Source: a virus. Taken from it: a stretch of 29,718 nucleotides of DNA. Of this stretch, positions 709-27,035 are shown one piece after another; position 1 is the first letter of the stretch; each line of letters starts with the position of its first letter. The position numbers were made by a program, and so were the translations under genes. The stretch covers positions 1-29,718 of the IMG/VR virus record IMGVR_UViG_3300013132_000183; one strand, given 5' to 3'. The notes beneath the pieces were generated by a model. The model searched no databases. It was not told the DNA's origin and saw only the letters and a list, made by a program, of their open reading frames with translations.

Positions 709-1698
709 TCAGCCCTTAATACCAGCCAAGTGAAGGATGCGCCTGAGTGTGGGATCCAGCGATTCCTTCTTGACTGCGGATTCTTTTTCCTGCTCGAGCT
801 CGGGGTTCGCAGGCGTCGCCTTGCTGGGACTCTCAGGATCGGCCTCGCCATGTGCAAATTCACCGGGCCCATAGATGAAGGTCTCGGCTGGAACTTTACC
901 GCTCACTGCAGTGTCGACTTCCTGTGTGTTCTTAGAGAGGTCGTCATAAAAGTGAACCTCGCCCGGCTGCTTATCTGGCGATCGACCCTTGAAGAACTTC
1001 TTCACGATCTCATCACCCTTGTTCGCGCCCTGGACGCCGAGAACGCCCTGGGTTGGTCCCGCTCCCTGTGATGAGAGGAACTTCTCCATGTCCTCGGCGT
1101 TCGAGGGCTCGACAGGTTGGCCGGAGAAGCTGACACCGGGCTTGCTCTTGTCTGAGGCGCGGGCCGTAATCACCATCGTTTCGGACCCCTGTGAGTTCGC
1201 CTTCTTGAGCTTTCCTATCGTCGAGCCGATCGGATCCGTCGTGTTGACGTCCACAAAAGCTGAAGGTGTAAAGTCGATGTAGAGAGAGTCTCCCTTCTTA
1301 TCAGTGGGAGCCTTTGGACTGACTGACTGCTGTTCACGCGGAATCTGCTTCTGGAGCTTTGCGAGGCCCGCGGAGTCGATGTATGCTGCCGTGCCGTCTA
1401 GGCCTGAAGGCTGCTCAAACGGCTCTCCTCCGGGTCCCTTGAGCATGTTCTTGTCCGACACGCCCATCGACTTGAGCCAGGCTGCTGCTTCCTTGGCGGA
1501 CTTGTGGGCGGGCTTGCCGTCCTTGTAGAGCATCACTCCGTTGGCGTTCTTTGTGAGGCCCAGTGTGTCGTCGAAGTCGAAGACGTGCGCTTGTTTTTCA
1601 GGCGCTACATCGCCTGGAACAGGCGATCCTGAGGTCATGACACCCTCCTCTTCGTTGAGGATGGCCCTGATAGTCTCTCTCAATAGGCGCTCTGACAT
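709..1698 (-). CDS. HAD-superfamily protein with N-terminal capsid-targeting-like peptide
   Basis: 329 residues from the ATG at 1698, which has AAGGA 7 bases upstream. A slightly longer start at 1704 lacks spacing for a ribosome site. HAD motifs are visible: DFDDT at residues 41-45 (nucleophile and acid/base Asp), VITAR with the motif II Thr near 178, a Lys in NKGDEIVKKF near 227, and FYDDLSKN with the motif IV Asp pair near 252-253. A phosphatase or nucleotidase role is likely but the substrate is unknown. A long Gly/Ser/Pro-rich insert lies between motifs I and II. The N-terminus, MSERLLRETIRAILNEEE, matches the peptide shared by the 21-27 kb virion block, so I infer packaging in the virion. 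The C-terminus TLRRILHLAGI echoes the start of the protein at 23246-24025. Confidence 0.8.
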   Translation of the reverse strand: MSERLLRETIRAILNEEEGVMTSGSPVPGDVAPEKQAHVFDFDDTLGLTKNANGVMLYKDGKPAHKSAKEAAAWLKSMGVSDKNMLKGPGGEPFEQPSGLDGTAAYIDSAGLAKLQKQIPREQQSVSPKAPTDKKGDSLYIDFTPSAFVDVNTTDPIGSTIGKLKKANSQGSETMVITARASDKSKPGVSFSGQPVEPSNAEDMEKFLSSQGAGPTQGVLGVQGANKGDEIVKKFFKGRSPDKQPGEVHFYDDLSKNTQEVDTAVSGKVPAETFIYGPGEFAHGEADPESPSKATPANPELEQEKESAVKKESLDPTLRRILHLAGIKG

Positions 1699-1724
1699 GT
1701 ACATTTCCTTAAGTATTTGACTGA

Positions 1725-4700: not shown

Positions 4701-5003
4701 CTGGTCGGCCGCATCCCTGAAGATCCTGCGATTGACCGTGGAGCAGAAGTAGTTCGAGCCGTAGGTGCCTGTCAGCGCCTCGACGAGAGCAGTCCACCGG
4801 CTCCTCGTGTTTCGAGGGTTGACGTTGTTCAGGCACACAGGCAGTCTCGAGGGCGCCGACACGTCATACTCCATAGAGCCTGATGTGTCGAGGATGAGCA
4901 TCACCGCCGGACGAATCTCCCGGATGTCAGGTTCCTGGCCGTGAGCGGGAGCAGAGAAGAATAGAAGGGCGAGAAAAATGAGGGTAGTAACGAGTGATCG
5001 CAT
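1725..5003 (-). CDS. PilY1-like secreted protein with VWA domain and C-terminal beta-propeller
   Basis: 1092 residues from the ATG at 5003, chosen because GGAG lies exactly 6 bases upstream (5010-5013). A signal peptide is clear: MRSLVTTLIFLALLFF followed by APAHGQ. A von Willebrand A domain starts at once with LILDTSGSM (MIDAS Asp39, Ser41, Ser43), and ISDGEGDD follows later. From about residue 550 the sequence has PilY1 propeller signatures: VIYVGTNDGILHAF, ELWGFVPPAIL, LLDGTPVIRNVF, VQGLRGGGPFYIAMDV and KFLWQF. PilY1 is a bacterial type IV pilus tip adhesin and assembly factor of about 1100-1200 residues, so this copy is close to full length. Its presence among phage genes is very unusual. 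It may alter pilus function or adhesion in the infected host, or act as a host-derived receptor-binding factor. Family assignment is firm; role is inference. Confidence 0.9.
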   Translation of the reverse strand: MRSLVTTLIFLALLFFSAPAHGQEPDIREIRPAVMLILDTSGSMEYDVSAPSRLPVCLNNVNPRNTRSRWTALVEALTGTYGSNYFCSTVNRRIFRDAADQYYHLAHYQAYGTQATNGLLDTYLDRIKFGLMTMDSTYGIANTSGTLDYLIPSSIYTARIRDIIGAPGGYSYGDRQPVSWPGCGTSYVVNGGARRAAGSGEAILGGLISVGADSADYRVTNAEIQSTLLALRPYGGSTIDALLGDFQVWLEQDDDVRSGSDPLAACRSRYAILISDGEGDDLYRRFGCEASGSVCPYDRSSETVRELCAYNGTECTGLLDGFYAVSYASSSPAGRSFMNDLASVGGTGSAYEASNTAALLDSLSAALDRSATGTTTRTTTAYIGTSRVYRPGASTVGEQYEFTSGFRIGSPWTGILERTRYTCTGPRTPPTMEDLAPEDQFHELLNTRDLAIRPRDLITVVGADWNSSTGVIIGQYDPVYAIPTSPTRGSRRLTDENITRVLSTTEVTAAHLGFFTGSASTREASRTTTLNWLHGITRPGARMGDIYHSNPVISSPPVADIADESFNLWRQTESVIDRPPVIYVGTNDGILHAFAVENFSTLSGRNIRAGDELWGFVPPAILSRVESARNSHQFLLDGTPVIRNVFYRRRPGDVPSANSYHTVLVQGLRGGGPFYIAMDVSDPLDPKFLWQFTRPEMGPTIGRAGVGQVLVEIEGVLQERAVAVFGAGGGELVVTGSGPSRGWGSCSIPPGASRRGIVAYPGRSARRCWLNDQGRGLYVVDIATGEVIREFGADIITSPMVGSVSLYTGDTGTIANRAYTVDADGALWRLDMSSRDPDAWSLETIHDLYWADSALDGASSQEPPILSVDNEGQVVVIVGTGNIDDLEGQDLFRVVSVTDRITWSATGVASYAPVLNWEIRLKPGEQVTGPMELFMSRVYFSTFSSTSSATDACQWGGSKIWGVDYLRTGPHATGYDPVGTITSPFPLAALESTPNSGVFDRHFTDMSLNSIAMGVAIAATPTCVVGTTTMDPYLGSRFSVTEAGGGDFRLVSQLSGPRATRATGTAVSLYNLDLPQPPSYTRVLSWVGNADY

Positions 5004-5062
5004 GCAGGTCTCCATAGACAACTATAATAGTAGAAGCTCTAATTGATCGCAGTCGACTTCTT

Positions 5063-9188: not shown

Positions 9189-10151
9189 TCAGACACCGGG
9201 CGGAACTTCAAGCTTCAGAGCGGCTAGGCTCTCCTTGAACTTCTGCATCACCCTCTCGCGCACTGAGGAGTCGAACTTAAAGTTTGTTCCCACGATCTGT
9301 GACATTAAGTCCTCATATGAGTCTATCGCTGACCATGACACAGGCTTTTTTAAGAAGTGCCCAGAGATCTCATTCGCATTCTCTGTGACCTTCTCCTTCA
9401 CAATTATCACAGCGGGTGATGCAAGGGGCTTTCCCTTCTTGCCCATCACCTGCTCCTCGTAGTAGAGCCGGTCAATTAGACCGCGCCTAAAGTTCACCAG
9501 GTACCTCTTCTTTAGAACGCCCTTCGGTGCGGACTTCATTTCCTCGTCTGTGATCTCAGCAGGAATCACAGAGAACAGCGCGCCCATGAGCGCGTTTCTG
9601 TACACAGCCTTGTACGAGCTTCGTGGAGGCGATCCTGAAGAGGTGTCGACCATCCACTTGAGGCTTCCAACAAACACGTCGAGCTGTGCCATGCCCTCAG
9701 TGTCTTCCTCCTCATATGTCTCAGCGTTCACCGCGTTTGTGGGTCGTTCTTTCTTGTCAACAAGCGGAATGAGCATGTGAAACTGGCTCAGTCCTGGAAT
9801 GATTCTAAATGTCATGTCCTTTTTGGTTAGATGCGCTTCGAGAGCCTTCCAGAGTCCCTTCGAATCAACGTCATCTTCCACTTTCAACGCGCGCCGAAGC
9901 TCAGACTCATCCACTGCAGTATCGATGTCACCAAAATAGTCCTTTGTCTTATTTCCCACAATCTCGTACTTCATTCCTTCAAGTCCGCTCATCTTGAAGG
10001 CATTTTCAATACTTGATTTAAGAAGCTCTTTGGGAACAACAGTGTTGACCTCAGGAAATGCATGTCCTCCCTCAGTGAGAACGGTTCTTACGATTCTTCT
10101 CTCAAGTTCTTCTCTTATGAGACGTCGAAGTGACTTTTCTAGAATTTTCAT
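9189..10151 (-). CDS. Nucleotidyltransferase-fold protein with N-terminal capsid-targeting-like peptide
   Basis: 320 residues; AGGAG sits 6 bases before the ATG. The N-terminus MKILEKSLRRLIREELE is the shared tag peptide. Catalytic-type motifs of the pol beta nucleotidyltransferase superfamily follow: GNKTKDYFGDID (residues 66-77, Asp75 and Asp77) and QLDVFVG (Asp158). The family transfers nucleotides to proteins, RNA or small molecules; the substrate is not visible. The C-terminal half is basic and helical, ending MQKFKESLAALKLEVPPGV. A tagged nucleotidyltransferase suggests delivery into the host with the DNA, as T4 does with Alt (an unrelated ADP-ribosyltransferase). That role is inference. 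Confidence 0.75.
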   Translation of the reverse strand: MKILEKSLRRLIREELERRIVRTVLTEGGHAFPEVNTVVPKELLKSSIENAFKMSGLEGMKYEIVGNKTKDYFGDIDTAVDESELRRALKVEDDVDSKGLWKALEAHLTKKDMTFRIIPGLSQFHMLIPLVDKKERPTNAVNAETYEEEDTEGMAQLDVFVGSLKWMVDTSSGSPPRSSYKAVYRNALMGALFSVIPAEITDEEMKSAPKGVLKKRYLVNFRRGLIDRLYYEEQVMGKKGKPLASPAVIIVKEKVTENANEISGHFLKKPVSWSAIDSYEDLMSQIVGTNFKFDSSVRERVMQKFKESLAALKLEVPPGV

Positions 10152-14864: not shown

Positions 14865-15518
14865 TCAAATCATAAAGTAGTTCCACACAGCGCAGAAGTG
14901 AATCACATTTCCTGCCATAACAAGAACATGCCATGCTGTGTGAAAGAATCTCTTGTAGTGCCACATGTAGAACACAAGTCCAAAAACATCAAGGGCACCA
15001 GAGACAATAAAAAGATCTCTAGAGTTAGCGATAGGACCCGTGCTGAAAGTTAGAAACAGCAGCGCACCGGCGACTGAAAATGCTACATAAGACGTGAGCG
15101 AACCACGCTCAGGCTGATTTCTATTTCTAGCCTTGTACGCAATTCCCCAGATGCACGCAGCCCAGACAAGAGCCAAAAGAACAACATTCCAGGGACTGGG
15201 CACACCAATCGCAAGCACAGGTGTGTAAGTTCCTGCAATTGCTGCATAGATTGCAGACTGATCAAGAAATCGAAATCTCGACTTTAGGGGTGGGCTCTCT
15301 GTGTAGTGGTAGGCAACAGAAAACAAATAGACCAAAATGTGTGCGATGCCATAAGCGAGGCCTGAGAACATGTGTGTGTCAGAGAGCGAGGCTGCCCTCC
15401 AGCACAGGGCAGACGTCATTGACACAGCGAGACCCAGCCCAAACACGTGTGTAAGGGCATTGAGAATTTCCTCGTCCCGATCACGAAGGAAACGATTTGC
15501 GAAGAAAGAGAGTCTCAT
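14865..15518 (-). CDS. HlyIII/PAQR-family seven-helix membrane protein
   Basis: 217 residues starting MRLSFFANRFLRD. Seven hydrophobic segments can be counted. Family residues are present: NALTHVFGLGL in helix 1, FSVAYHYTES after helix 2 (S-x-x-x-H), RFLDQSAIYAAIAGTYTP in helix 3, and HTAWHVLVMAGNVIHF in the last helix (H-x-x-x-H). PAQR proteins are membrane metal-dependent hydrolase-like proteins; bacterial members (YqfA, hemolysin III) have poorly known roles, perhaps in membrane lipid homeostasis. A phage copy is unusual and could alter host membrane properties. Length is normal for the family. Confidence 0.88.
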   Translation of the reverse strand: MRLSFFANRFLRDRDEEILNALTHVFGLGLAVSMTSALCWRAASLSDTHMFSGLAYGIAHILVYLFSVAYHYTESPPLKSRFRFLDQSAIYAAIAGTYTPVLAIGVPSPWNVVLLALVWAACIWGIAYKARNRNQPERGSLTSYVAFSVAGALLFLTFSTGPIANSRDLFIVSGALDVFGLVFYMWHYKRFFHTAWHVLVMAGNVIHFCAVWNYFMI

Positions 15519-15540: not shown

Positions 15541-16251
15541 TCAGTGTCCGCTGTGAATCTCTCGGTAAGCGCCCACCGTGATGGGCCACAGGTCCGTGGC
15601 GATCTCCAGGCATGCCTTCGCAACCTGCTGGATCTCCCACTGCGCCCCCTCATGGGTGCGGAGATCAATGAACTTCAGGAGGTTTTGCAAATTTGTGCTC
15701 CCGTAGTACTCGGTGTAGAGGCAGTTGGGCAGCACGCCCCTTGCCTGTTCCCGGCACACACCGGCTTCAGTGAGCGCGTTGTAGAGCTGGACTGCCGAGA
15801 GGTTGTGCTCCAAATAGGCCGAGCTCGCATCGAGCTTCGAGTGCCCGTGCACGATGTGGGGATTGATGCGCTCGTTGGGATTGCTTGCCTGCCGGTTGCT
15901 CGTGTGCTGGGTGCGGAAGGCGGCAGGCTCGTAGAACCTGATGTTCTCACTCGAATATCTTTTCGAAGTTTCATTGTAGCTCCACGTGCGATGTCGATGA
16001 TGTTGACTTCGAACATACAAGGGTACTATGAATCTAAAGGTCACGACATTGTGCTCAAGTGTAGATGTGTGTTTATGAGTAATGAGATATTTGATGAGCT
16101 TCTCGTCCCGCTCGTCCAGTACATCCTTGTGTTTGCCGAAGCTCACCCGGGCGGAGTTTACCACGGTGAGGTCGGTGCCCATGTGTTGGACGTACTCGAC
16201 GGCGCCGATCCCATCGCTGTAGAGCTCGATCCGACGGGAGTACGGGGTCAC
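15541..16251 (-). CDS. thyX: Flavin-dependent thymidylate synthase ThyX
   Basis: 236 residues from the GTG at 16251, which overlaps the thioredoxin stop. It makes dTMP from dUMP using methylene-tetrahydrofolate and FAD. The ThyX motif RHR-x7-S is exact at residues 86-96 (RHRTWSYNETS), followed by KRYS. The early SARVSFGK and HTSTLEHNVVTFRF segments and the C-terminal FIDLRTHEGAQWEIQQVA also fit. It is grouped with thioredoxin and dUTPase, which supply related steps in DNA precursor synthesis. Confidence 0.96.
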   Translation of the reverse strand: MTPYSRRIELYSDGIGAVEYVQHMGTDLTVVNSARVSFGKHKDVLDERDEKLIKYLITHKHTSTLEHNVVTFRFIVPLYVRSQHHRHRTWSYNETSKRYSSENIRFYEPAAFRTQHTSNRQASNPNERINPHIVHGHSKLDASSAYLEHNLSAVQLYNALTEAGVCREQARGVLPNCLYTEYYGSTNLQNLLKFIDLRTHEGAQWEIQQVAKACLEIATDLWPITVGAYREIHSGH

Positions 16252-16576: not shown

Positions 16577-17017
16577 TCAGCTTCCCGTTGATCCAAATCC
16601 GCCGGCGCCGCGCTCAGTCTGATCCAGCGCGCTGACAGTGTCAAATGCCGCCCTTGCGACAGGTGCAAAAACAAGCTGAGCGATTCTGTCACCTCGCTTG
16701 ATTCTGAACAGTCCCTCGCCGTGGTTGAACAGGATCACCTTGACCTCACCGCGGTAGTCTGAGTCGATGGTGCCGGGCGCATTCAGTACTGCCACGCTGC
16801 TCTTTGCAGCCAGTCCAGATCGAGAGCGGACCTGCGCTTCGTATCCTTCTGGGATCGCGATCGCGATTCCGGTGCGTACCATTGCCGACTTTCCCATCCA
16901 GATTTCAACATCTTCAGCGGCATGAAGATCCATGCCGACAGATCCAGGCGTCTGGTATCGGGGAATCACAGCGTTTTCGTGCAGCTGCACAATGCGCACG
17001 CTCAAAGGACTGCTCAT
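16577..17017 (-). CDS. dut: dUTP diphosphatase
   Basis: 146 residues from the ATG at 17017, chosen for GGAG with 6-base spacing. It hydrolyses dUTP to dUMP and pyrophosphate, keeping uracil out of DNA and feeding ThyX. All five trimeric dUTPase motifs are present in order: GSVGMDLHA (25-33), RSRSGLA (64-70), [11 protein letters not shown] (82-92, catalytic Asp85 and Tyr88), RGDRIAQLV (108-116) and [10 protein letters not shown] (136-145). The 14-base gap to thioredoxin suggests one transcript. Confidence 0.96.
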
Positions 17018-17063
17018 GTCTTTCTCCGTTCTTGATATATTATTGACGTCTAGGTCAAGCTGT

Positions 17064-17342
17064 TTACAGACAGCGCTCACTACTGATGATCACTTGCTCG
17101 TAGAGATTATGAAACAGACTGTGCGAGTCTCCCGTGTTGGGAGCGTCCGCCAGCACCCTTAGACTTCCTGTGATATCAAAGTACCCAATCGTCACAAAGT
17201 CTGGACGGTACAGTGCAAAAGCGCCCGATGTCACACTCGACTGTGCGTAAGACACAAGGCACTTTAGCTGCTCCTCAAAAGTCTGGGCCTCACCAGACAG
17301 AGATGCGCCGCACTCACCGCAGACCACGTGCTCTTTAGTCAT
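17064..17342 (-). CDS. Small hypothetical protein with N-terminal CxxC
   Basis: 92 residues starting [17 protein letters not shown]; the ATG overlaps the UvsE stop as ATGA. The single C-x-x-C could be half of a zinc site, with the terminal RCL Cys too far to judge. The middle ([20 protein letters not shown]) is beta-like. No family recognised. Confidence 0.65.
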
Positions 17343-18286
17343 GCCGCCAAAACTCCCTTCGCGCCAAAGTCCTTGATGTACTTAAATAGCGCCCTCTCCT
17401 TCGCTTTTGCCTCGAGCATCACGTCGACGCCGCTGGCAAACTCAGGGAAGGGCTTGAAGTAGTAGTCGCTGTGCGCGTTCTCTGCGACAGTGCTGTCCTC
17501 GTACAGCCGCTTGGAGTTCGAGTGGTGGCACACGGGCCGGATGCCCTTGGGCCAGGAAGCCTTGGCCATCTCGAACGCCTCCTGGGGCGTGCTGTCCTGG
17601 GGACCGAGCTCGTCGTGGTGGGAGTCCCAGACGATGGGCACACCGACGCGCTTGAAGACGCCCTCGTACAGCATCTTGGAGGAGTAGAGGCTGCGCTTGT
17701 CGTCGTTCTCCACGGTGAGCCGGGAGCGGACGGACTCGGACAGGCCCTCGAAGTTGCGGCACCAGCGCTCCATGCTGGCCTCGGGTGAGCCGTAGGAGGC
17801 GCCGATGTGGATGTTGATCTTGCTCCAGTGATCGCGCGGCATGCCCAGCAGGTCGAAGATCTTGCCGTGCATCTCGAGGTCTACGTAGGAGTTGTCCACC
17901 ACCTTCTGCTTGGGGGAGGTGAGGATGTTGAAGGGGCCGGGGTGGAACGAGAGCCGTTGGCCACCGTCGCGTGCCAACTTGCCGGCGTGTGCGAGGGCCT
18001 TGGCGATCCGCTCGAAGTCCGGGAGCTGCTCGAGCGCGTACTCGGAGCCCCAGGGGAACAGGCATGAGGTGATGCGGAACGCCTTGATCCCCATGCTGTT
18101 GTTCCACTTGATCACCCGGGCGAGGTCGGTCACGTTCTGCAGGGCGAGCTTCGAGGCGCCGGGGAGGCCCTGCTTGTCGAAGGTGCGGCGGATCATGCCA
18201 CGGGAGCACTGCACCTTGTCCTTGGACTCCTGCAGTTCCATGTTGATGCACGCGTAGCCGAGCCGAATGTCGTTGTTGCTTGTCAC
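17339..18286 (-). CDS. uvsE: UV damage endonuclease UvsE/UVDE
   Basis: 315 residues from the GTG at 18286 with GAGGG upstream. UVDE nicks DNA 5' of UV photoproducts and starts an alternative excision repair. Family features: N-terminal RLGYACINMEL, FRITSCLFPWGSEY, RLSFHPGPFNILTSP, KINIHIGASYGSPEASMERW, RLTVENDDKRSLYSS, VPIVWDSHHDEL, IRPVCHHSNSKR. The His, Glu and Asp residues in these TIM-barrel segments are the metal ligands. Length is normal. It could protect virion or replicating DNA in sunlit waters. Confidence 0.95.
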   Translation of the reverse strand: MTSNNDIRLGYACINMELQESKDKVQCSRGMIRRTFDKQGLPGASKLALQNVTDLARVIKWNNSMGIKAFRITSCLFPWGSEYALEQLPDFERIAKALAHAGKLARDGGQRLSFHPGPFNILTSPKQKVVDNSYVDLEMHGKIFDLLGMPRDHWSKINIHIGASYGSPEASMERWCRNFEGLSESVRSRLTVENDDKRSLYSSKMLYEGVFKRVGVPIVWDSHHDELGPQDSTPQEAFEMAKASWPKGIRPVCHHSNSKRLYEDSTVAENAHSDYYFKPFPEFASGVDVMLEAKAKERALFKYIKDFGAKGVLAA

Positions 18287-18843: not shown

Positions 18844-19113
18844 TCAGAAGACCTTTGTGCTTCTCCTCGTCTTCTTCTCCCTGACCTTCCGCCTCGTCTT
18901 CTTCTTCACGTCCTCAATCGGCTTCTTTGACAGCTGCTCGCCTGTCATGAACCTGTGCTTCTGATCAGTTGAGTCGTACACATCAATTGCGGTGTCGAAC
19001 CCCTCCTTCTCGAAGAAGCCCACAACCCTACCCATCCTGGACAGGCCGTCCTTGAGCACAAACCACACGGTGTCACCAACGCTAAAGTCTCCAAGCTTCC
19101 CAGATTCAGACAT
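18844..19113 (-). CDS. GDLV/SH3-like family protein with very basic tail
   Basis: 89 residues from the ATG at 19113, supported by a strong GGAGGA site; the long upstream open frame is a shadow of the hydroxylase gene. The core FSVGDTVWFVLKDGLSRMGR, VVGFFEKEG, HRFMTGEQLSKKP fits the family. The last 22 residues are nearly all Lys/Arg (KKKTRRKVREKKTRRSTK), typical of nucleic-acid binding. It overlaps the hydroxylase stop by 8 bases. Confidence 0.75.
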   Translation of the reverse strand: MSESGKLGDFSVGDTVWFVLKDGLSRMGRVVGFFEKEGFDTAIDVYDSTDQKHRFMTGEQLSKKPIEDVKKKTRRKVREKKTRRSTKVF

Positions 19114-19912
19114 TGTCTCTCCTCCGGAGGTCACTAATGCACCTCCTAATCTCGCTGTACATGTGATGGACTGAGTCTGCCTTGAACAGGCGACGATGCA
19201 TGTGCATCGTGTCGTATTGAGCCCGCACCACAGCGTCGGGGGAAAAGGGCTCACACGGAATTTTATCGATCCCAGACAGCTCACCTGCGGAGCTGAGAAG
19301 CCCTGCACCGAAGGCCCTGGTTTGTCCCTGTTCGCACACGAGCCCGAACTCAACCGAATACCAATACAACCTCTCAAGACAGCACAGAGACTCATCTGGG
19401 AGCACCCGCGCTGCTTCTCCGATCTCTCGGTTCAGAGCACAGTAGTCACTATCAAAGAACATCACAACGTGGCCAATGAGCTCGTGCACAATGTCTGGCT
19501 CCGGAGTGTACAGCGGCACAGAGTGGTGCCTGATGTACTGCGTGCACAGCATGCGGCCCTCGGCGAGGGCGGACAGGAACACTCGCGGTGAGACGAGACC
19601 CTCGACCGGAACAAGTCTAAAACCTGTCTGGCGCTCAATTCTTCTGCTCACGTCTGACAACTGTGGAATCCTTGTGGTGCTCAGCTGGGCTATCGGCCTC
19701 GTCTGAAGAAACACATCACACGCAAACTCAGCGTGGAGGGGAGCTAGAATTCTATTCACATCCTGCCACACTTTGTGCTCGTCAGATGTGTACTCGACAG
19801 TGGGAATAGGGCTGGATTCGCGCCAGGTTTGAGCTTCTGCCGCTATCTTGTCCCTGCGCTGCCGATACTCTGGATCGTGAAATCCAGGATGGTCTACATC
19901 AAGCACGCACAA
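19106..19912 (-). CDS. phhA: Phenylalanine-4-hydroxylase-like aromatic amino acid hydroxylase
   Basis: 268 residues, close to bacterial PhhA (about 260-300). The family converts Phe to Tyr with O2, a pterin cofactor and one Fe(II). The iron triad is intact: His143 and His148 in PDIVHELIGHVVMF and Glu188 in YWYSVEFGL. Other family segments: HPGFHDPEYRQRRDKIA at the N-terminus, GFRLVPVEGLVSPRVFLSAL, GRMLCTQYIRHHSVPLYTPE, and AFGAGLLSSAGEL. The start is uncertain: the first in-frame codons are TTG (19912) and GTG (19906), with no ATG and only weak ribosome sites. A phage copy is rare. It could change host amino acid pools or supply Tyr. No pterin synthesis gene is nearby. Confidence 0.92.
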   Translation of the reverse strand: MCVLDVDHPGFHDPEYRQRRDKIAAEAQTWRESSPIPTVEYTSDEHKVWQDVNRILAPLHAEFACDVFLQTRPIAQLSTTRIPQLSDVSRRIERQTGFRLVPVEGLVSPRVFLSALAEGRMLCTQYIRHHSVPLYTPEPDIVHELIGHVVMFFDSDYCALNREIGEAARVLPDESLCCLERLYWYSVEFGLVCEQGQTRAFGAGLLSSAGELSGIDKIPCEPFSPDAVVRAQYDTMHMHRRLFKADSVHHMYSEIRRCISDLRRRDNV

Positions 19913-20634: not shown

Positions 20635-21119
20635 GGTGTCTCTCCTGGTGAGGTTTCAGTCGACATCTCAACTGGGTGTCTACTGGAAATTCTGCCAAGT
20701 GCCTCATTGAGGGGCACTAGATCGGGCATTCTTGAACTCCCGAGGGTCCTTGTGCCGCCAGAGATTGAACTCGGCCGAGAGCGCTCTGCTTCCATGACTC
20801 GACCGGTGTAGTCCAGACGTGCCTGTATGACAGACAGCACAATCCTGATGTCGTTCATGTCCTCTGCCGCCCTCAGCTCCGCGGAACGCGCCATGCGGTC
20901 TGCCTCAAGGACACGATCCCTGAGAGCTGTGATCTCTGACTCAAGGCTCTCAACCGAACCCCTGATCTCCCGTGCATCACGGTCGCGATCTGTCATGGCA
21001 AAAGTGAATGCCCAGCTCAGCGCGCCTGAGAGCATGCCTATGATTCCGGCGAGGGCGACGAGGGTCTTCCAGATCTTGTCGATCTTCTGGGAGAAGTCTG
21101 GGCTCGAGGTCTTGGTCAT
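20631..21119 (-). CDS. One-helix membrane protein with coiled coil, possible spanin or holin
   Basis: 162 residues starting MTKTSSPDFSQKIDK. One transmembrane helix at about residues 17-42 (LVALAGIIGMLSGALSWAF) is followed by a long coiled coil (DRDAREIRGSVESLESEI onward to about 112) and a Ser/Pro-rich tail. The single N-terminal membrane helix with a periplasmic coiled coil is the layout of inner-membrane spanins. It overlaps the amidase gene by four bases, which supports a lysis role. No outer spanin was found beside it. Confidence 0.6.
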   Translation of the reverse strand: MTKTSSPDFSQKIDKIWKTLVALAGIIGMLSGALSWAFTFAMTDRDRDAREIRGSVESLESEITALRDRVLEADRMARSAELRAAEDMNDIRIVLSVIQARLDYTGRVMEAERSRPSSISGGTRTLGSSRMPDLVPLNEALGRISSRHPVEMSTETSPGETP

Positions 21120-21643
21120 CTGACGACCCTAAGCGACCTCTTTCTCCCCTCAGACATTGATTCATCTGCCTTTTGACGCCAAGAGTCCGACATGCTGTCA
21201 GAGGTGATCGGTCCGCCAGCCGCCCACGTGTAGCAGCTTCGAGCGCTGTGGCACTTGAAGTGGTGCATCCAGCAGTATCCGAGGCTCTGCCACGGCTTTC
21301 CCTCCGATATCGCTGCAGAGATCTCATCTTGGGGCATAATCTCACCGGGCATGCACTCCTGCATCTTTGGTGAGATGTCGAATGCCGCGCAGGAGCCGCA
21401 CCTTGACTGCTTCGCAACATCAGGAGTGGTGCCCCAGTGATCGGCGAGGTGCTCCCAGTACTCCTCGTCCGCGAGATTAAGAGGACCGTACTCAATGTGC
21501 TCGGCCTTGATTGCAGCATTTCGATTTCTAGTGTTGAGCTCTAAGTTCTGAGTGGCAGCTGGGCAAGCTCCCTCCATCTCCTCCGCCTCACGAATGATCC
21601 GCTTGATGGCCTCCCTGAGGAGCTTGGCGTCCTTTGTGCTCAT
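21116..21643 (-). CDS. Conserved Cys-rich phage protein with tag-type N-terminus
   Basis: 175 residues from the ATG at 21643. The N-terminus STKDAKLLREAIKRIIREAE is the shared tag peptide. The body has GACPAATQNLELNTRNRNAA, YGPLNLADEEYWEHLADHW, RCGSCAAFDISPKMQECMPG, LGYCWMHHFKCHSARSCYTW and AAGGPITSD. I recognise this Cys-rich order from many marine phage genomes, where it is hypothetical. Seven cysteines plus histidines suggest metal binding. Its place at the end of the virion block and the tag suggest a packaged protein. Confidence 0.75.
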   Translation of the reverse strand: MSTKDAKLLREAIKRIIREAEEMEGACPAATQNLELNTRNRNAAIKAEHIEYGPLNLADEEYWEHLADHWGTTPDVAKQSRCGSCAAFDISPKMQECMPGEIMPQDEISAAISEGKPWQSLGYCWMHHFKCHSARSCYTWAAGGPITSDSMSDSWRQKADESMSEGRKRSLRVVR

Positions 21644-21668
21644 GTTTAACACTCACGTCTCCACGCAG

Positions 21669-21694
21669 CCTGCAGCCGCGACCTGCAGCCGCGA
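21669..21694. repeat. Two tandem 13-bp repeats in the 5' leader
   Basis: CCTGCAGCCGCGA occurs twice back to back, with no gap, in the untranslated leader of the gene at 21116-21643. It may be a regulatory site or a recent slippage event. Each unit contains a PstI-type CTGCAG palindrome. Confidence 0.7.
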
Positions 21695-21699
21695 CATGA

Positions 21700-21711
21700 G
21701 TAAATATGTTG
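21700..21711 (-). promoter_or_regulatory. Candidate promoter element, 12-bp motif shared with 27.9 kb
   Basis: The plus-strand 12-mer GTAAATATGTTG here is repeated exactly at 27873-27884. Its core TAAATATG recurs at 25418-25425. On the minus strand this reads CATATTTA. All three lie upstream of genes of the virion block, 25-60 bases before a start codon. A late-promoter role is inferred. Confidence 0.4.
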
Positions 21712-21735
21712 AGCAGTGTCAGTGTTATAAAAGCA

Positions 21736-21764
21736 TTTCGGCCCGGTCAAAGACCGGGCCGAAA
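21736..21764 (-). terminator. Strong intrinsic terminator after the gene at 21800-22009
   Basis: TTTCGGCCCGGTC (21736-21748) and GACCGGGCCGAAA (21752-21764) form a perfect 13-bp stem with a three-base loop. On the minus strand it is followed by TGCTTTTATAAC. It lies 35 bases after the stop of the gene at 21800, and ahead of a fresh promoter-like motif for the lysis segment. It is the clearest transcription boundary in the window. Confidence 0.85.
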
Positions 21765-21799
21765 CCTCTAACACAAGAGAATGTTAGAACTTACCTGAT

Positions 21800-22009
21800 T
21801 CAGTCCTCGATGGTCTCTGCGAGGAAGCTCTGGAGCGCGCGCGCCTCCTTCACGGTGAGGGTGAGCGACACCGACGGCACACTGTAGCCACTCTCATCCC
21901 GGCGCGTGTTGATCGTGACCGAGTTGCAACCTGCCTGCTTCGAGACGTTGTCACGACGAACGGTGTAGCTGTAGCGCGAGATGTTCTTGGTACGGGTGAA
22001 GTTGTTCAT
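21800..22009 (-). CDS. Small conserved phage protein
   Basis: 69 residues from the ATG at 22009 (AAAGGAG with 7-base spacing). It reads MNNFTRTKNISRYSYTVRRD, CNSVTINTRRDESGYSVPSV, SLTLTVKEARALQSFLAETI. The 'VSLTLTVKEARALQSFL' end is a pattern I recognise in other phages, without a known role. The gene stands alone between the terminator and a 95-base leader. Confidence 0.75.
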   Translation of the reverse strand: MNNFTRTKNISRYSYTVRRDNVSKQAGCNSVTINTRRDESGYSVPSVSLTLTVKEARALQSFLAETIED

Positions 22010-22104
22010 TCTGTATCTCCTTTGATTTCCAGGTTTGTTTTCCTGTCCTGGTTGAATCAATATTAGTCAAGGAGCCCCCCATGTACAAGGATTTTTTCGT
22101 CGTA

Positions 22105-22270
22105 TCAGCGTTTACGACCCCGACGCGCTTTCATGAGACGGTAGCCAAACAGACTGTCAAGGCGCGGCTTTATTTCTTTGATCCAGTCTCCCTTTTCAGG
22201 TGTCTCATCTGGATCAAACTTCTTGTTCTGATTAGTGTCAATTAAATTATGTGTAAAGTGCGTGCTCCAT
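22105..22270 (-). pseudogene. Small basic-tailed protein gene with a one-base frameshift
   Basis: The ATG at 22270 overlaps the upstream stop as TGATG and reads MEHALYT before a stop. Skipping one base at about 22249 continues in a frame reading NLIDTNQNKKFDPDETPEKG, DWIKEIKPRLDSLFGYRLMK, ARRGRKR and a stop at 22105. This second frame has no ATG, GTG or TTG start before its core. It follows in frame after the TGA of the upstream gene, so read-through is an alternative. Protein-like composition and the TGATG join make the frameshift reading the best one. Confidence 0.55.
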
Positions 22271-22767
22271 CACAGGCCCTTGAGGACTGACAGAGGGTCT
22301 GTGTCCTCCTCTTCCTCGGGTGGCTCGGGAGTGGGTGCAGGAGTGGGCTCGGATGCCTCCGCATCGTCCGCCGCCTCAGCAGCGGGAGACGCAGATGCGG
22401 AGGCCTTGGGACTGTATGGGATGCCGTCGACTGTGAGGATCTTCACCATGTCAACAGTCTGCAGCCCCATGAGCACATTTCTGAGGTCCTCAACCCTCAT
22501 GCCGCTTGAGGGATCGTACCCGATGTTGAGGCTCACCATGTTCTTGTTCTCAGGAGCGTCGATCATGGGCTCAGACTGGCGCACAGTGATCACGTTCTTA
22601 GCGCCCCTCAGGTCTGTGAGAATGTCCGCCATCGAGGGATCGTTGGGCCGATTGATCTGAACACGGAGGCGCACCTTCACGTACGTGATGTCAGAGAAGT
22701 CCTCGTTGAGGGCACGACGCAGCGTCCTCCGAACGATCTCCCTAAGCTTTGACTCACGCATGAGCAT
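22270..22767 (-). CDS. Probable virion protein with tag-type N-terminus and acidic Pro-rich tail
   Basis: 165 residues; the ATG follows the upstream TAA directly. The N-terminus MRESKLREIVRRTLRRALNE is a variant of the shared tag. The middle (residues 26-115) is an alpha/beta domain: ITYVKVRLRVQINRP, AKNVITVRQSEP, NMVSLNIGYDP and LRNVLMGLQTVDMVKILTVD. It ends in a low-complexity Ala/Pro/Glu chain (SEPTPAPTPEPPEEEEDTD) like tails of phage core or scaffold proteins. No family recognised. Confidence 0.7.
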   Translation of the reverse strand: MLMRESKLREIVRRTLRRALNEDFSDITYVKVRLRVQINRPNDPSMADILTDLRGAKNVITVRQSEPMIDAPENKNMVSLNIGYDPSSGMRVEDLRNVLMGLQTVDMVKILTVDGIPYSPKASASASPAAEAADDAEASEPTPAPTPEPPEEEEDTDPLSVLKGL

Positions 22768-23208
22768 TTATGGCCTCAAAGATACTCTAATAGTAGGTAT
22801 AATTTCTCCAACTTTTGTAACAAGTAAAGCAACTAGGTCTGATTCAGAATACCCATTTGATAGAGCGGTTTCAAGATCTCTCTGGTAGCCTTGAGCAGTC
22901 TTTATAGCAGAAACAGAAGCTCTTCGTGCATCATCATTGACCAACAAGTGTCGTTTATGATCAAGAACCAGTTTACTTATTTCATTCTTAAGTTCATCCT
23001 CAAGCGACACCATCGAGGCCGGATTAAATCCCAACAGCTCATCAAGCTGATCAATCGGATCTTGAGATGCTAAGAGTGTGGTGTCATCAGGGCCCTCAAA
23101 GTCATCAGGGTCCTCAATAGTAGCACGAGGATTGTATTCATCGCCTACAAGACGTCCGATCTCTTCTGAGATGAGCCTTCGAAGCTGTGTCTGTGTGAGT
23201 CTAGGCAT
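22768..23208 (-). CDS. Probable virion protein with tag peptide
   Basis: 146 residues starting MPRLTQTQLRRLISEEIG, a clear copy of the shared tag. An acidic stretch follows (IEDPDDFEGPDDTT), then a helical region with DELKNEISKLVLDHKRHLLV and QGYQRDLETALSNGYSESDL. No enzyme motif is visible. The base composition here (22.78-23.45 kb) is clearly more A/T-rich than the flanking virion genes, which may mark a separate origin. Confidence 0.7.
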   Translation of the reverse strand: MPRLTQTQLRRLISEEIGRLVGDEYNPRATIEDPDDFEGPDDTTLLASQDPIDQLDELLGFNPASMVSLEDELKNEISKLVLDHKRHLLVNDDARRASVSAIKTAQGYQRDLETALSNGYSESDLVALLVTKVGEIIPTIRVSLRP

Positions 23209-23245
23209 TTAGAACTTTCTATTTCTTTCTTGATACACAATTATT

Positions 23246-24025
23246 TTAGAAAGGCGTTCCATCTGGATTTTGCACTTTTTCAAGCTGCATTTCAAGAGCA
23301 GCCATCACATTCGTCCATACCTTGGCTTCTTCTGACGTGATGCTGGAAGTCGTTTCTTTGGCCATTTTTTCGTATTGAGCTTTAAGACTTTTTAATTCTC
23401 CTTCATCTTGAATTGCCTTAATTTGCTCAATTGACTTAAGTGACTTAAGACGCGCTTTCAGAGGAACCGGAGGCGGACCCTCATTCAGCAGTGCAGCAAG
23501 GTCGACTGTGAAGACCCGCTCCTTCACTGTTGGGCGGGCCTTCCTAGACTCACGCTGCCACATGGGAGCATTTCCTCCGCGGCCGTATGGGTCTGTGTCG
23601 TAGATGTCCTCCGGCGCAGGACCGATGTCTGACGCCATGACAGCCTCTTCGGATCCAGGCTCATCAGCGACATTGTATATGAGCTCCTTGGCAGCCTCAT
23701 GGGCGGCCTCGGACGCGAGCTCCTCCTTGAACTCGTCGAACGTCCTCACACCCGAGTCCCAGTAGGCGCGGGGATCGGGCACGATCGCAATGTCCCGAAG
23801 GAGGTCGAGCTCCGCTGTCATTCGCCGGTTGAAGTCGTCCACGGCTGCCTTGAAAGCCTCCCACTCGGGACCCTGCGGATCTCCGCTCGGGAGGGCGCCC
23901 GAGCCGCCTGGGACCGGCCCCATCTGCATGGGAGGCTCAGGAGATAGGTCGTCGCCGGCAGCCTCCCTGAGGAGGCCTGCGAGCTTAAGCATTCTCTTCT
24001 CGTTGTACTCTCTCATTCCGCCCAT
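23246..24025 (-). CDS. Probable virion protein, helical, variant tag
   Basis: 259 residues; GGAG lies 8 bases before the ATG at 24025. The N-terminus REYNEKRMLKLAGLLREAAG is a divergent tag (it ends L-R-E-A). Then come a Gly/Pro-rich linker (MQMGPVPGGSGALPSGDPQG), a helical segment with FKEELASEAAHEAAKELIYN, and a second module after residue 165 (ERVFTVDLAALLNEG). The C-terminal 75 residues are Lys/Glu-rich helix and more A/T-rich in DNA than the first two thirds, suggesting a mosaic join near 23460. No family recognised. Confidence 0.65.
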   Translation of the reverse strand: MGGMREYNEKRMLKLAGLLREAAGDDLSPEPPMQMGPVPGGSGALPSGDPQGPEWEAFKAAVDDFNRRMTAELDLLRDIAIVPDPRAYWDSGVRTFDEFKEELASEAAHEAAKELIYNVADEPGSEEAVMASDIGPAPEDIYDTDPYGRGGNAPMWQRESRKARPTVKERVFTVDLAALLNEGPPPVPLKARLKSLKSIEQIKAIQDEGELKSLKAQYEKMAKETTSSITSEEAKVWTNVMAALEMQLEKVQNPDGTPF

Positions 24026-24027
24026 GA

Positions 24028-24606
24028 TCAGCTCTCCTTCACTCTCTGCTGTAGCAGGTAGATGTATCTGGTGTAGTCGTTCGCCGCTGAGGCGAGGAAG
24101 TCATTGAGTCCCAGCGGAAGGTCGCCCGCTGCCTCGAGGTCACCGAACAGCGTCTCAACGTGGTCGTTGAGGTCCCGAACGATCTGGAGCGCTGTTCCTG
24201 CGATCATCGCTGGGCTCGCGCCGGCGGGCGAGGGGTAGGTCAAAAGCTTCTCGAGCGCAGCGGCGGTCACAGTCTGTGGGCACGCGACGCCCTCGTCCTC
24301 TGTGATGCCGATCGCCTTCTCTGCGGCGCCGTCGTAGTCCTCGATGAGGGCCTCATAGATCTCGCCGTAGATGTTGACGTGGTCTCCCGCAAAGCCCGTG
24401 CCCTTCGTGAGCTGGTGGGCGGCGTGAAACCAGATTCCCGCGCACCGGAGGCAAGAGAGCAGGCTGCTCATCCCGTCCTCAACTGATGTGTGCTCGCTCA
24501 CCTCAACCTCGTCGAACAGGGGCACAACCTGAATTGCTCCCCCGCCGAGCGCAGCGCCCAGCTCTTCCTTGATGATCCTGTTTAGCTGTCCCTTTGTAAG
24601 CTTCAT
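24028..24606 (-). CDS. Dps/ferritin-like protein with N-terminal tag peptide
   Basis: 192 residues with AGGA before the ATG. The first 17 residues, MKLTKGQLNRIIKEELG, are the best copy of the tag. The rest reads as a four-helix Dps-like bundle: LRCAGIWFHAAHQLTKGTGF, AGDHVNIYGEIYEALIEDYD, GAAEKAIGI, LTYPSPAG and RDLNDHVETLFGDLEAAGDL. His64 and His76 are 12 residues apart and Asp92 and Glu96 are four apart, the spacing of the Dps ferroxidase ligands. Dps proteins oxidise and store iron and can bind and protect DNA. Packaged in a capsid, it could shield the genome from Fenton damage. The fold call is by pattern; the packaging is inference. Confidence 0.72.
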   Translation of the reverse strand: MKLTKGQLNRIIKEELGAALGGGAIQVVPLFDEVEVSEHTSVEDGMSSLLSCLRCAGIWFHAAHQLTKGTGFAGDHVNIYGEIYEALIEDYDGAAEKAIGITEDEGVACPQTVTAAALEKLLTYPSPAGASPAMIAGTALQIVRDLNDHVETLFGDLEAAGDLPLGLNDFLASAANDYTRYIYLLQQRVKES

Positions 24607-24618
24607 ATCTTGTTCCTC

Positions 24619-25386
24619 TCAGGTCCTGCGCCCAGCGCCTCGAACTGTCTCTCTCACAATCCTGCGGAGTCCGCCGCGAGCCTCGTAGACCGGCTCACCG
24701 CTGTCGTACCTGGTCATCTTGTAGTCCATGTAGTCGCTTATTGTGGAAATTGTCTGGTAGGCCATAGTCACCTTCGCCTGAAGCCACTCTGGGAGCGTGT
24801 CCTCGTCGGTGAGCCTGTCGTGTAGCGACTGGGCCTTTCTTGCGATGTTGAAGAGCTGACCCTTCGCCATCTGGGAGTCGCCGCCCGCGCCAAAATTTCT
24901 TCCCACGCCCTCGGGGGGCTCGAGGTGGGCGACCATCGCGTCTGCAGGCTCACTCATGTCAACGGGCATGGGATCTCCGCACTCGCGCATCATGTCCTGC
25001 TCGTGGTGTGCGGGATTAAAGTCTCGCTTGAGGACACTGTACATGATGTAGTCGTGGATCGCGTCGATGTGCTCAGCGGCAGAATTGATCTTGCTCTCTA
25101 TCCAGGGCTCCGCGTCGTCCCAGGGAGTTGCGAGTCCCGCGAGGTCCTCCGCCTTTGCTGCGAGCTTCTTCAGGTTGCCCAACAGCATGTAGCCGGGATG
25201 CTCCTCGTCGGGGGCGTCGAAGGGACCGCTCTCCTCTGTGCCCTCCCACTCCTCCTCATGGTCCATCACGTCGTCAGAGTGCTCTGGCTCGTCATCCCAG
25301 TCACTCTCGTACTGGACGTCGTCCATTCCGCACTCATTGAGCGACTCCTCGATGATGCTCTTTAACATTTCTCTAGTGATCTTCAT
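24619..25386 (-). CDS. Probable virion protein with tag and two internal repeats
   Basis: 255 residues; GGAGC 7-8 bases before the ATG. Tag MKITREMLKSIIEESLNE, then an acidic linker. Two copies of a helical repeat follow: residues 65-125 (MLLGNLKKLAAKAEDLAGLA ... WIESKINSAAEHIDAIHDYI) and 173-232 (MAKGQLFNIARKAQSLHDRL ... WLQAKVTMAYQTISTISDYM). Both share L-x-x-(I/L)-A-x-K-A, (E/P)-W-(I/L), K-(I/V) and D-Y-(I/M). I recognise this repeat from many marine phage proteins of unknown role. The C-terminus GGLRRIVRETVRG looks like a second tag copy at the other end. Confidence 0.75.
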   Translation of the reverse strand: MKITREMLKSIIEESLNECGMDDVQYESDWDDEPEHSDDVMDHEEEWEGTEESGPFDAPDEEHPGYMLLGNLKKLAAKAEDLAGLATPWDDAEPWIESKINSAAEHIDAIHDYIMYSVLKRDFNPAHHEQDMMRECGDPMPVDMSEPADAMVAHLEPPEGVGRNFGAGGDSQMAKGQLFNIARKAQSLHDRLTDEDTLPEWLQAKVTMAYQTISTISDYMDYKMTRYDSGEPVYEARGGLRRIVRETVRGAGRRT

Positions 25387-25417
25387 ATTAAACGCTCCGA
25401 GCGCTAATGAACATCAC

Positions 25418-25425
25418 TAAATATG
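25418..25425 (-). promoter_or_regulatory. Candidate promoter core upstream of the repeat protein gene
   Basis: TAAATATG on the plus strand (CATATTTA on the minus) lies 32 bases before the ATG at 25386. It matches the core of the motif at 21700 and 27873. Only 8 bases are shared, so this copy alone is weak. Confidence 0.3.
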
Positions 25426-25444
25426 AGTCTGCCCCGTGAAAGTG

Positions 25445-26056
25445 TCACATTTTGAGCAGAAATTCAGGCGGAATCATCTTAAAAGGCATGCTGATAAGGG
25501 ATCGAAGCGAGGGATCAGTCACACCAGCGGCATCTAGGGCGGTCTCTATCATGCTGCTGTAATCATCTTTACTTGCAGGCATTCTCTGCTTGACAAGCCT
25601 AACGAGCTCCGCCTCAAATCGACGCTTGGGTGCCTCCTTCTCCGCGACGTAGGACTTGCTAGCGGAGGCAGTGCCCTTCCAGGACCACGTGAGGCCGCCC
25701 ATTTGATCTGAGTCTCCTGGCCCCAGGGTCCTCCAGTCAAACTTTGAGTCAATTGCGTTAAAGACCTCCTCGATCTCAGGGTACATCACTCGAACTTCCT
25801 CGTGCGGCACATACCAGTGTGTGTCTGTGGTGCGCACGAGATAAGGCCGGTCAGGCCCATCAGTCACGTAGATGGGTGCAGCAGCAAGCCTGCGTCCTGT
25901 CGTGCTGTCAGACACGAGAATGTATCCCGAGTACGTGTCGGGGCCGTTCACAAAGTTGGGCTCTGTGGGTGTCGGACGTGGGTCCTCGTCGCCATCCCAG
26001 GAGGTCTCTAGTTCCTCTCTAATCAGGCGACGGAGCTGAGAATGTGTGAGTCTCAC
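25445..26056 (-). CDS. Probable virion protein with tag peptide
   Basis: 203 residues from the GTG at 26056 with AGG 8 bases upstream. The N-terminus MRLTHSQLRRLIREELE is a near-perfect tag. The body reads YSGYILVSDSTTGRRLAAAP, THWYVPHEEVRVMYPEIEEV, GGLTWSWKG and a basic helical end. No enzyme motif recognised. The 58-base gap downstream holds one copy of the TAAATATG motif. Confidence 0.72.
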   Translation of the reverse strand: MRLTHSQLRRLIREELETSWDGDEDPRPTPTEPNFVNGPDTYSGYILVSDSTTGRRLAAAPIYVTDGPDRPYLVRTTDTHWYVPHEEVRVMYPEIEEVFNAIDSKFDWRTLGPGDSDQMGGLTWSWKGTASASKSYVAEKEAPKRRFEAELVRLVKQRMPASKDDYSSMIETALDAAGVTDPSLRSLISMPFKMIPPEFLLKM

Positions 26057-26068
26057 AGTGTCAACCTA

Positions 26069-26884
26069 TCACTTTCTGTGCTTTTGAACTCTGCGCCACT
26101 CAGACTTGTCGACGCTGCGGGTCTTGCCGCCTCGTATGAAGCTGTTCACTCTCGCCATCGCCCAGGCGTGCTGTGGAATTCCCTGGCGGTGTCCAGTGAG
26201 CCAGGCGGCGAGACCCTTTCGATAGACAGATGTGAGAGCCCCAAGGGGCATGTTTGCGTTGTCTGCCTTCTTCTTAAGAGTCTCACGGGTCTTGCTGCCC
26301 AGGCCACCCTTCTTTTTCTTCTTCGCCTCGTCCAGGACCTCAGCTAGGAGCTTGTCGAGCTCAACTTCCAGTTCCTCATTTGTCCTTGCCTTGCGAGACT
26401 TATTATAGGTCTTGTCTGCAGTCCACTCATCGTAGCATCGGGCTGGAGGATTGGGCTCAGAGCAGATCCCTATCTCATAGGACATTTGCTTATTGCTCTT
26501 TCTCGTGCCCTTGTAGTAGTTTGGGTTTCCTGGGCGTCGTCGTCGGCGTCGACCCTCATCAACGTCCTCCGCAAGGAGGCTTATGACGGCTGACGCCATC
26601 GTGTCCTCGTCGACAGACACGATCTCGACAACAAGGTCGGACGCGTCGGCGTCTGCGTGAAGCCTGTGCCACACCTCAGCGGGAATAGGCTCAACTGATC
26701 CCACCTCAAGCACAACTGGGAGGCTATTGTCCACTTGCAGGGACCAGCCCTGCCCCTCGACAACACGCACGAGCCTGTGGTCCCTGTCTCTGTGCCACAC
26801 AAGCTCCTCGTGCGTGAGTCCCGATGAAAAAGTCCTCAGGCGGGCGCCGCTGGGGAGCTGGGTCTCACTAAACGGCATCATCAT
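26069..26884 (-). CDS. Multi-module phage protein: mini-cupin-like domain plus conserved C-terminal module
   Basis: 271 residues; three ATGs in a row (26884, 26881, 26878) follow GAGGTG, so the exact start is open. Residues 25-90 look like a small cupin: VWHRDRDHRLVRVVEGQGWS, LQVDNSLPVVLEVGS and PAEVWHRLHADADASDLVV, with His in VWHRD and VWHRL. A basic RRRRRRPGNPNYYKG linker follows. The C-terminal module (LGALTSVYRKGLAAWLTGHR ... HAWAMARVNSFIRGGKTRSV) is one I recognise from many phages, function unknown. The gene overlaps the small tagged gene before it by 17 bases and probably encodes a structural protein. Confidence 0.72.
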   Translation of the reverse strand: MMMPFSETQLPSGARLRTFSSGLTHEELVWHRDRDHRLVRVVEGQGWSLQVDNSLPVVLEVGSVEPIPAEVWHRLHADADASDLVVEIVSVDEDTMASAVISLLAEDVDEGRRRRRRPGNPNYYKGTRKSNKQMSYEIGICSEPNPPARCYDEWTADKTYNKSRKARTNEELEVELDKLLAEVLDEAKKKKKGGLGSKTRETLKKKADNANMPLGALTSVYRKGLAAWLTGHRQGIPQHAWAMARVNSFIRGGKTRSVDKSEWRRVQKHRK

Positions 26885-27035
26885 AGTTCACCTCATCTGC
26901 CTCATCACACCCAAAGTCCTCAGTGTCGTGATCGGGCACAGTGGACTCAGGAGGGCCGTAGTATGCGGCATCCAGCCACACCTTTCCCAGTTCCTCCCTA
27001 ATAAGACGCTGCAGCGCTGCCTCTGTTATCCTCAT
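26868..27035 (-). CDS. Mini-protein made mostly of the tag peptide, 55 residues
   Basis: The ATG at 27035 lies three bases after the upstream stop (GGTG nearby) and reads MRITEAALQRLIREELG, then KVWLDAAYYGPPESTVPDHD and an acidic end (DEADEVNYDDAV). The TAG stop is at 26868-26870. The tag match and tight fit between neighbours show it is real although very short. It could be a free tag, a core peptide, or the first exon-like remnant of a protein that once continued into the next gene. Confidence 0.75.
   Translation of the reverse strand: MRITEAALQRLIREELGKVWLDAAYYGPPESTVPDHDTEDFGCDEADEVNYDDAV

Follow-up and report, generated by a model that had tools for sequence, protein, structure and literature searches.

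Here we describe a short N-terminal peptide (the tag) that heads otherwise unrelated proteins encoded by the virus fragment IMGVR_UViG_3300013132_000183 of IMG/VR, which is contained complete in the stretch of DNA analysed (the window, 29,718 bases). The likely genes of the window lie on the minus strand throughout; no tRNA is present, and neither a head module nor a tail module is recognised. Genes were called mechanically, as the longest open reading frame (ORF), and the contigs come from metagenomes. The tag has the consensus M-K/R-I/L-T-x-x-Q-L-x-x-I-I-x-E and the chemistry of a cationic amphipathic helix; it is short and has hydrophobic residues at positions 3, 8, 11 and 12. An original prediction had placed it on ten proteins of the window; all the start sites cited exist and the motif is real. 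Six of the ten carry clear copies, which score 21-32 bits against the profile described below: the Dps-like protein (gene 24028-24606; tag MKLTKGQLNRIIKE, 24565..24606, 31.8 bits), the product of gene 25445-26056 (MRLTHSQLRRLIRE, 26015..26056, 27.8 bits), that of gene 22768-23208 (MPRLTQTQLRRLISE, 23164..23208, 26.1 bits), a nucleotidyltransferase (gene 9189-10151; MKILEKSLRRLIREELERRIVRTVLTE, 10071..10151, 26.0 bits), a protein of 55 residues (gene 26868-27035; MRITEAALQRLIRE, 26994..27035, 22.0 bits) and the product of gene 24619-25386 (MKITREMLKSIIEESLNE, 25333..25386, 21.4 bits).

Three of the remaining four are weaker. The putative HAD protein (gene 709-1704, its start also given as 1698) begins with the variant tag MYMSERLLRETIRAILNE (1651..1704, 6.9 bits), and its RLLRETIRALLRE is preserved in the orthologue (79% identical) of the 147-kb sister contig G001. 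Gene 22270-22767 starts with the variant MLMRESKLREIVRRTLRRALNE (22702..22767, 2.1 bits, with LNE at residue 22), and gene 21116-21643 with MSTKDAKLLREAIKRIIRE (21587..21643), a variant recognised by eye that has IRE at residue 19 and is missed by the profile. The fourth, gene 23246-24025, carries a different tag, MGGMREYNEKRMLKLAGLLRE (23963..24025), a LAG-type N-terminus with RMLKLAGLLRE, and its sister orthologue carries MSISDYIHKRMLKHAGLLSE. Overlooked in the original prediction were two C-terminal features: a copy of the tag core, LRRIVRE (24649..24669), as residues 240-246 of the product of gene 24619-25386, which fit the core pattern, and the LAGI C-terminus of the HAD protein (LRRILHLAGIKG, 712..747), a motif that ends the scaffold protein of the clade.

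Behind the tag, the cargoes of the window are mutually unrelated. The AlphaFold2 model of the product of gene 24028-24606 (mean predicted local distance difference test score, pLDDT, of 90) has an isolated tag helix at residues 5-19, a linker with pLDDT of about 54-56 and then a four-helix bundle with pLDDT mostly above 95. In a Foldseek search with this model, Dpr/Dps fills the top of the PDB list, with TM-scores of up to 0.85 by target length, and the predicted fold confirms the protein as Dps-like. Two further identities had been proposed. For gene 9189-10151 the model is poor (mean pLDDT 63, from two sequences), and its best matches, polymerase beta/lambda-type nucleotidyltransferases at low global TM-scores of about 0.25, support a nucleotidyltransferase. 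The HAD label of gene 709-1704 comes from DxDxT motifs and a sub-cutoff DUF2608 match, and the protein has no sequence match in phage records or the PDB. The cargo domain of gene 24619-25386 is also found in a tagged protein of contig G008 (14656) and in proteins of the cyanophages S-H9-1 and S-WAM2 that begin with MKTFKQLREE. A pattern scan of IMG/VR gave no relatives for the cargo of gene 25445-26056, of which a homologue in sister contig L001 retains the C-terminal domain behind a diverged tag, LRQLIREEL, without the middle. Amid the tagged genes lies an untagged one, 26069-26884 (minus strand), encoding a cupin-like and DUF5824 protein in which internal SLLAE and KLLAE fit the protease motif discussed below.

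The profile spans 15 residues and was trained solely on the tags of contigs G003, G005 and G008 before being applied to the window. Among internal positions of the window (n=8,591) the best score is 14.5 bits, and where 6 genes are observed to reach at least 14 bits, each round of shuffled N-termini yields 0.003. When N-termini were compared unsupervised, with no motif given, the tag cluster was recovered as the sole cluster in the window. At the same threshold of at least 14 bits, eight contigs hold 62 tagged genes, whose products show only two similar pairs within contigs, bearing out the claim that nothing is shared after the tag.

The tag ends at a (L/I)xE site, the motif after which the prohead protease gp21 of phage T4 cleaves (PMC9026906). 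Exact copies of the tag were collected by a degenerate DNA search for the 14-codon consensus, and with one representative taken for each of the 68 cargo families found, information content drops from 1.71 bits at residue 22 (Glu) to 0.29 bits at residue 23 and remains at that level. Since the search pattern spanned residues 1-14 only, the boundary at Glu22 was not imposed by the search. In 38 of the 68 families, versus 1.3 expected, residue 21 or 22 is the last of an (L/I)xE. In the eight contigs the core tag itself ends in (L/I)xE in 51 of the 62 tagged genes, and 53% of tagged genes have a second (L/I)xE behind the core, versus 19.5% of untagged genes at the equivalent position (p=1.3e-8). 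Within the window, all ten cited genes have the site in residues 1-27, versus 12 of the 49 other genes in residues 1-30 (p=8e-7, a post hoc value because the ten had been chosen for such motifs). The predicted fit to the (L/I)xE rule thus holds.

The tag behaves as an exchangeable module. A cargo with the motif GDV(I/L)LxG(R/K)(F/Y)KNKR is found behind MKITKLQLRRIIAE, MKLLLENWRKYMKE and MKHLREYIRQILLE, in one register and joined after residue 14 (junctions IIAE|AIDLDI, YMKE|NIDLDI and ILLE|SISLDV). The Dps-like cargo of the window is seen untagged as well as behind the window's tag or LAGLLTE. The nucleotidyltransferase reads VRTVLTE|GGHAFPEVN in the window and MNILKE|GGHAFPEVN in a homologue on contig L324, so that the homology begins at LxE. 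The main tag of contig G014 is MKLLREYIRELLTE, a third tag type that is similar to MKTYQEFIAE of T4, and contigs G020 and G015 employ both this type and the window's. Exchange of this kind bears on the idea that all tagged proteins descend from a single old family of genes and have, outside the tag, diverged past recognition, an idea to which the tandem runs of tagged genes and codon sharing above chance lend something, as they point to common descent of the tag segment. Homologues of the Dps-like, nucleotidyltransferase and GDVILTGRFKNKR cargoes that have a different tag or no tag up to the same junction, and a drop of the profile at residue 23 that is a step and not a slope make such a family very improbable. 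A translated DNA element, such as a recombination or regulatory site, is less probable again: codon identity in the tag is above expectation, as such an element would have it, but 40-46% of identical residues use different codons, one cargo carries unrelated tags at one place and in one register, an open frame starts at each of the 115 exact matches, and selection is found at the peptide level without conservation at the DNA level. Paralogy and a DNA-level element are both rejected as main explanations.

Several observations connect the tag to the phage head. The S77 prohead protease family is matched above the Pfam cut-off in all 14 sheath-related records tested. In contigs picked only for the exact tag it is present in 12 of the 13 of at least 100 kb and in none of the 6 smaller ones, versus none of 16 large contigs that lack the tag but encode a homologue of the Dps-like cargo (Fisher p=2.5e-7 for large tagged versus untagged contigs, a test inflated by the mutual relatedness of the tagged contigs). 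Two more Dps-bearing contigs carry S77, and one of them, L163, bears a different tag, MSNKLRWKKLAGLLTE. In the gp21 neighbourhoods read, the gene directly after gp21, or one further, starts MAK(I/L)(S/T)xxxLKGxVKECLxEILxEG, and the next gene starts K(K/R)LTPxLLRxxV (RKLTPSLLRKMVxxERKR); both starts fit the tag, and both genes lie between gp21 and the scaffold gene. The capsid proteins of the same contigs have predicted cleavage sites of this same (L/I)xE form, QVLRE|A and QMLKE|A, at about the position of the FLTE|A cut in T4 gp23. As a separate observation, the portal-position ORF of contig G005 (101179-106833) encodes 1,884 residues versus about 640 usually, pointing to an inserted element, for instance an intein.

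Because a short cationic amphipathic helix is also what localisation signals often are, the tag might serve another role in infection, such as targeting to a membrane, the host polymerase or a phage compartment, unrelated to the head. Its presence on gp21-adjacent head genes, the boundary at (L/I)xE, the co-occurrence with S77, its swaps with tags of a type similar to the capsid-targeting sequence (CTS) of T4, and the scaffold-type C-terminus on tagged proteins make this improbable.

That C-terminus is itself a candidate signal. In the clade, the protein in the scaffold (gp22) position, encoded directly before the capsid gene, ends RWAxLAG(I/L), an ending that T4 gp22 lacks. In the gene sets examined, some of whose loci overlap, 36 of 38 occurrences of RWxxLAG(I/L) are at the extreme C-terminus, and in ten contigs 18 C-terminal motifs are observed versus 0.1 expected from shuffled C-termini. 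The motif also ends the HAD protein of the window, its G001 orthologue and a further G001 protein (121315), which has the N-terminal tag at its start and the scaffold-type motif at its end. It may represent a second route to the same prohead core, by mimicry of the scaffold.

We therefore favour the reading that the tag is a prohead-targeting propeptide of the T4 CTS type, cut by a gp21-type protease, to which we assign a probability of roughly 0.87. A modular head-packaging signal that has recruited new cargo, as originally predicted, is the reading best supported by the gp21 link, the tags in the head operon, the end of conservation at an (L/I)xE and the homologues that bear a different tag or no tag. 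What computation shows is the tag, its boundary, its exchange between cargoes, its place on proteins of the head operon and its occurrence together with gp21; the following course is what we infer. The amphipathic tag helix would bind the scaffold core during prohead assembly, and the cargo would thereby be enclosed in the head. A gp21-type protease would cut after (L/I)xE, at about residue 14 and often at a second site near residues 21-22, upon which the tag fragment would leave and the mature cargo, freed in the head, would remain with the DNA and probably be ejected into the host. As a module, the tag would have been acquired by many unrelated genes, with tags replacing each other on the same cargo.

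The same evidence admits another use of the head. The tag could mark components of the prohead core, small scaffold-like fillers that are destroyed in maturation, and not cargo bound for the host; T4 gp67 and gp68 are core fillers of that kind. Tagged proteins are often small, about 70-140 residues (median 95), two tagged genes lie between gp21 and the scaffold gene, and T4 core proteins are cleaved at the same motif (PMC9026906). Against core components, the tag heads folded cargo domains with untagged homologues (Dps-like, nucleotidyltransferase, HAD), and the mature regions are not enriched in LxE (16% of downstream windows). We consider core components the strongest alternative, though an unlikely one.

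Several points weigh against a CTS-type propeptide. No head module and no gp21 were found in the window or in G001; the prohead protease that had been sought is thus found in the sheath-related records and in neither of these fragments, which lack the head module. The cut site is uncertain because about half of the tagged proteins have no second LxE, the co-occurrence test is inflated as said above, and no virion proteome or cleavage data for tagged phages were found in the open-access literature. Codon identity in the tags is 54-60% versus 35-43% expected, and the common tag reflects shared descent in part, alongside selection on the peptide. Finally, in similarity to the T4 CTS none of 469 window-type tags lies above the 99th percentile of the background, and that the window's tag is the T4 CTS itself is rejected on sequence; the parallel drawn in the original prediction is supported in kind, as a modular head-packaging signal, but not in sequence. 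By comparison, 92% of tags of the type MKLLREYIRE lie beyond the background 99th percentile in similarity to the T4 CTS MKTYQEFIAE. The argument is therefore a chain, from the proven T4 signal to a similar sister tag, and from this to its swap with the window's tag on one cargo.

Further tagged proteins occur in a large group of uncultured, T4-like phages. The exact tag gives 115 matches in 43 IMG/VR contigs, each opening a frame of at least 30 codons, and heads 87 distinct proteins; these frame counts take in three hits from bacterial and archaeal genomes. Contig G020 (201 kb) has 40 tagged among 344 called genes and contig G015 (293 kb) 25 among 471, and tagged genes frequently occur in tandem runs. 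In the search of 85,000 bacterial and archaeal genomes the exact tag hit three stretches, two of which share one contig of 306 kb, NHDW01000006.1 (L292/L294), binned in the Methylococcaceae metagenome-assembled genome TMED69; this contig has two exact tags and the third tag type, and may be a phage contig inside a bacterial bin. A tblastn search of INPHARED with the tag consensus gave a single match, the uncultured megaphage LR756508.1, and absence from cultured phages is not claimed since the 23-residue query is insensitive. In this 484-kb phage (stretch 180000-229999, L158), about nine genes carry the window's tag type and at least eight carry another short tag, M(K/R)(F/L)KxLLxE. Near tagged genes, L158:33947-34402 (plus strand) has sub-threshold RNA 2'-phosphotransferase/PARP-like matches. 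T4 Alt is an injected ADP-ribosyltransferase, and cargos of this type were suspected here from YRG motifs; they are not claimed, as the Pfam matches are below cut-off.

The nearest relative found for the window is G001 (IMGVR_UViG_3300035670_000028), which is syntenic with it, has matches to UvsX, tail sheath, tail tube, T4_baseplate and DNA ligase, and opens with genes whose matches in relatives follow shortly after the capsid gene. By sheath, the nearest isolate is Microcystis phage Mel-JY01, with Portal_T4, Peptidase_S77 and Gp23 in T4-like order, and Rhodothermus phage RM378, the reference Far-T4 phage (PMC4360716), is a further match. By Pfam and gene order, Mel-JY01 and contig L091 have the set expected of a Far-T4-like myophage, namely a T4-like Gp23 capsid and Gp20 portal with gp21, sheath and tube, arranged much as in T4; none of these markers lies within the window, and G001 has sheath, tube and UvsX. 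A PF03420 scan of the window and its two first relatives gave no match, a silence not read as absence because a control of 14 genomes gave none either. When 9.7 kb of the window were compared with phage records by megablast, no match was obtained.

Among the other genes of the window (all minus strand), 19106-19912 encodes a biopterin-dependent aromatic amino acid hydroxylase of phenylalanine hydroxylase type (Pfam E=1e-76), which is conserved in L001 and, to our knowledge, unusual in a phage. Gene 14865-15518 encodes a HlyIII/PAQR-like membrane protein (Pfam E=3e-26), also present in the sister contig. Adjoining the tagged HAD gene, 1725-5021 encodes 1,098 residues that begin like a signal peptide and include a PilY1 beta-propeller domain, which as far as we know is unexpected in a phage. 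UV endonuclease UvdE (17339-18286), ThyX (15541-16251) and dUTPase (16577-17080) are each above the Pfam cut-off.

The tag provides a sequence handle for head-packaged, probably injected proteins straight from metagenomes, in which each tagged protein is a candidate. T4 IPI is an anti-restriction factor, so lists of tagged proteins may be rich in counter-defence and host-takeover functions hidden from homology. Interchangeable tags and a scaffold-like C-terminus also make testable what the prohead core recognises in a CTS. We give even odds to a broader reading, a general cargo-loading code in which at least three interchangeable N-terminal propeptides and a C-terminal mimic of the scaffold tail, RWxxLAG(I/L), would between them bring the products of up to about 12% of called genes, dozens of proteins, inside the head and make the injected arsenal far larger and more plug-in than that of T4. 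In the open-access literature we found no account of this tag or the C-terminal motif, and none of peptides shared in this way by proteins of environmental phages, of tag types that replace one another or of genomes with tens of tagged genes.

Related systems are known from several phages. In giant phages SPN3US and phiKZ, N-terminal propeptides of head proteins are likewise removed by a diverged gp21 homologue, and the first 15 residues of SPN3US gp53 and gp54 are identical; in contrast to the window's relatives, their cleavage motif is A/S-x-E, several propeptides exceed 100 residues and few proteins are involved (PMC5694885). In phage P1, the first 30 residues of DarB bring a reporter into the capsid (PMC9024508), but this is one protein, in a head system without a separate scaffold, and no shared tag family is described there. 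Closer is T4, whose gp24 starts MAKINELLRE, resembling the MAK(I/L) tag of the gp21-adjacent protein, and whose Alt is processed at both ends (PMC9026906), as would be expected by analogy for the product of gene 24619-25386; these likenesses concern the propeptides, and homology of the cargoes was neither tested for nor found. The CTS of T4 IPI-IPIII is, like the tag, a short N-terminal peptide on unrelated proteins that ends in (L/I)xE, its first 10 residues are enough for packaging (PMC9026906), and variable internal proteins follow the conserved CTS (PMC3012670, PMC9026906). The window's relatives share with T4 the S77 protease and a gp22/gp23-type head module, and the sister tag MKLLREYIRE aligns with MKTYQEFIAE without gaps. 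The window-type tag differs in having no significant sequence similarity to the CTS, in its length of 14-22 residues, and in its occurrence on up to 40 genes per contig, alongside other tags and a C-terminal one. The CTS is thus a kind of signal already known from T4, of which the tag described here is a new and much expanded form.

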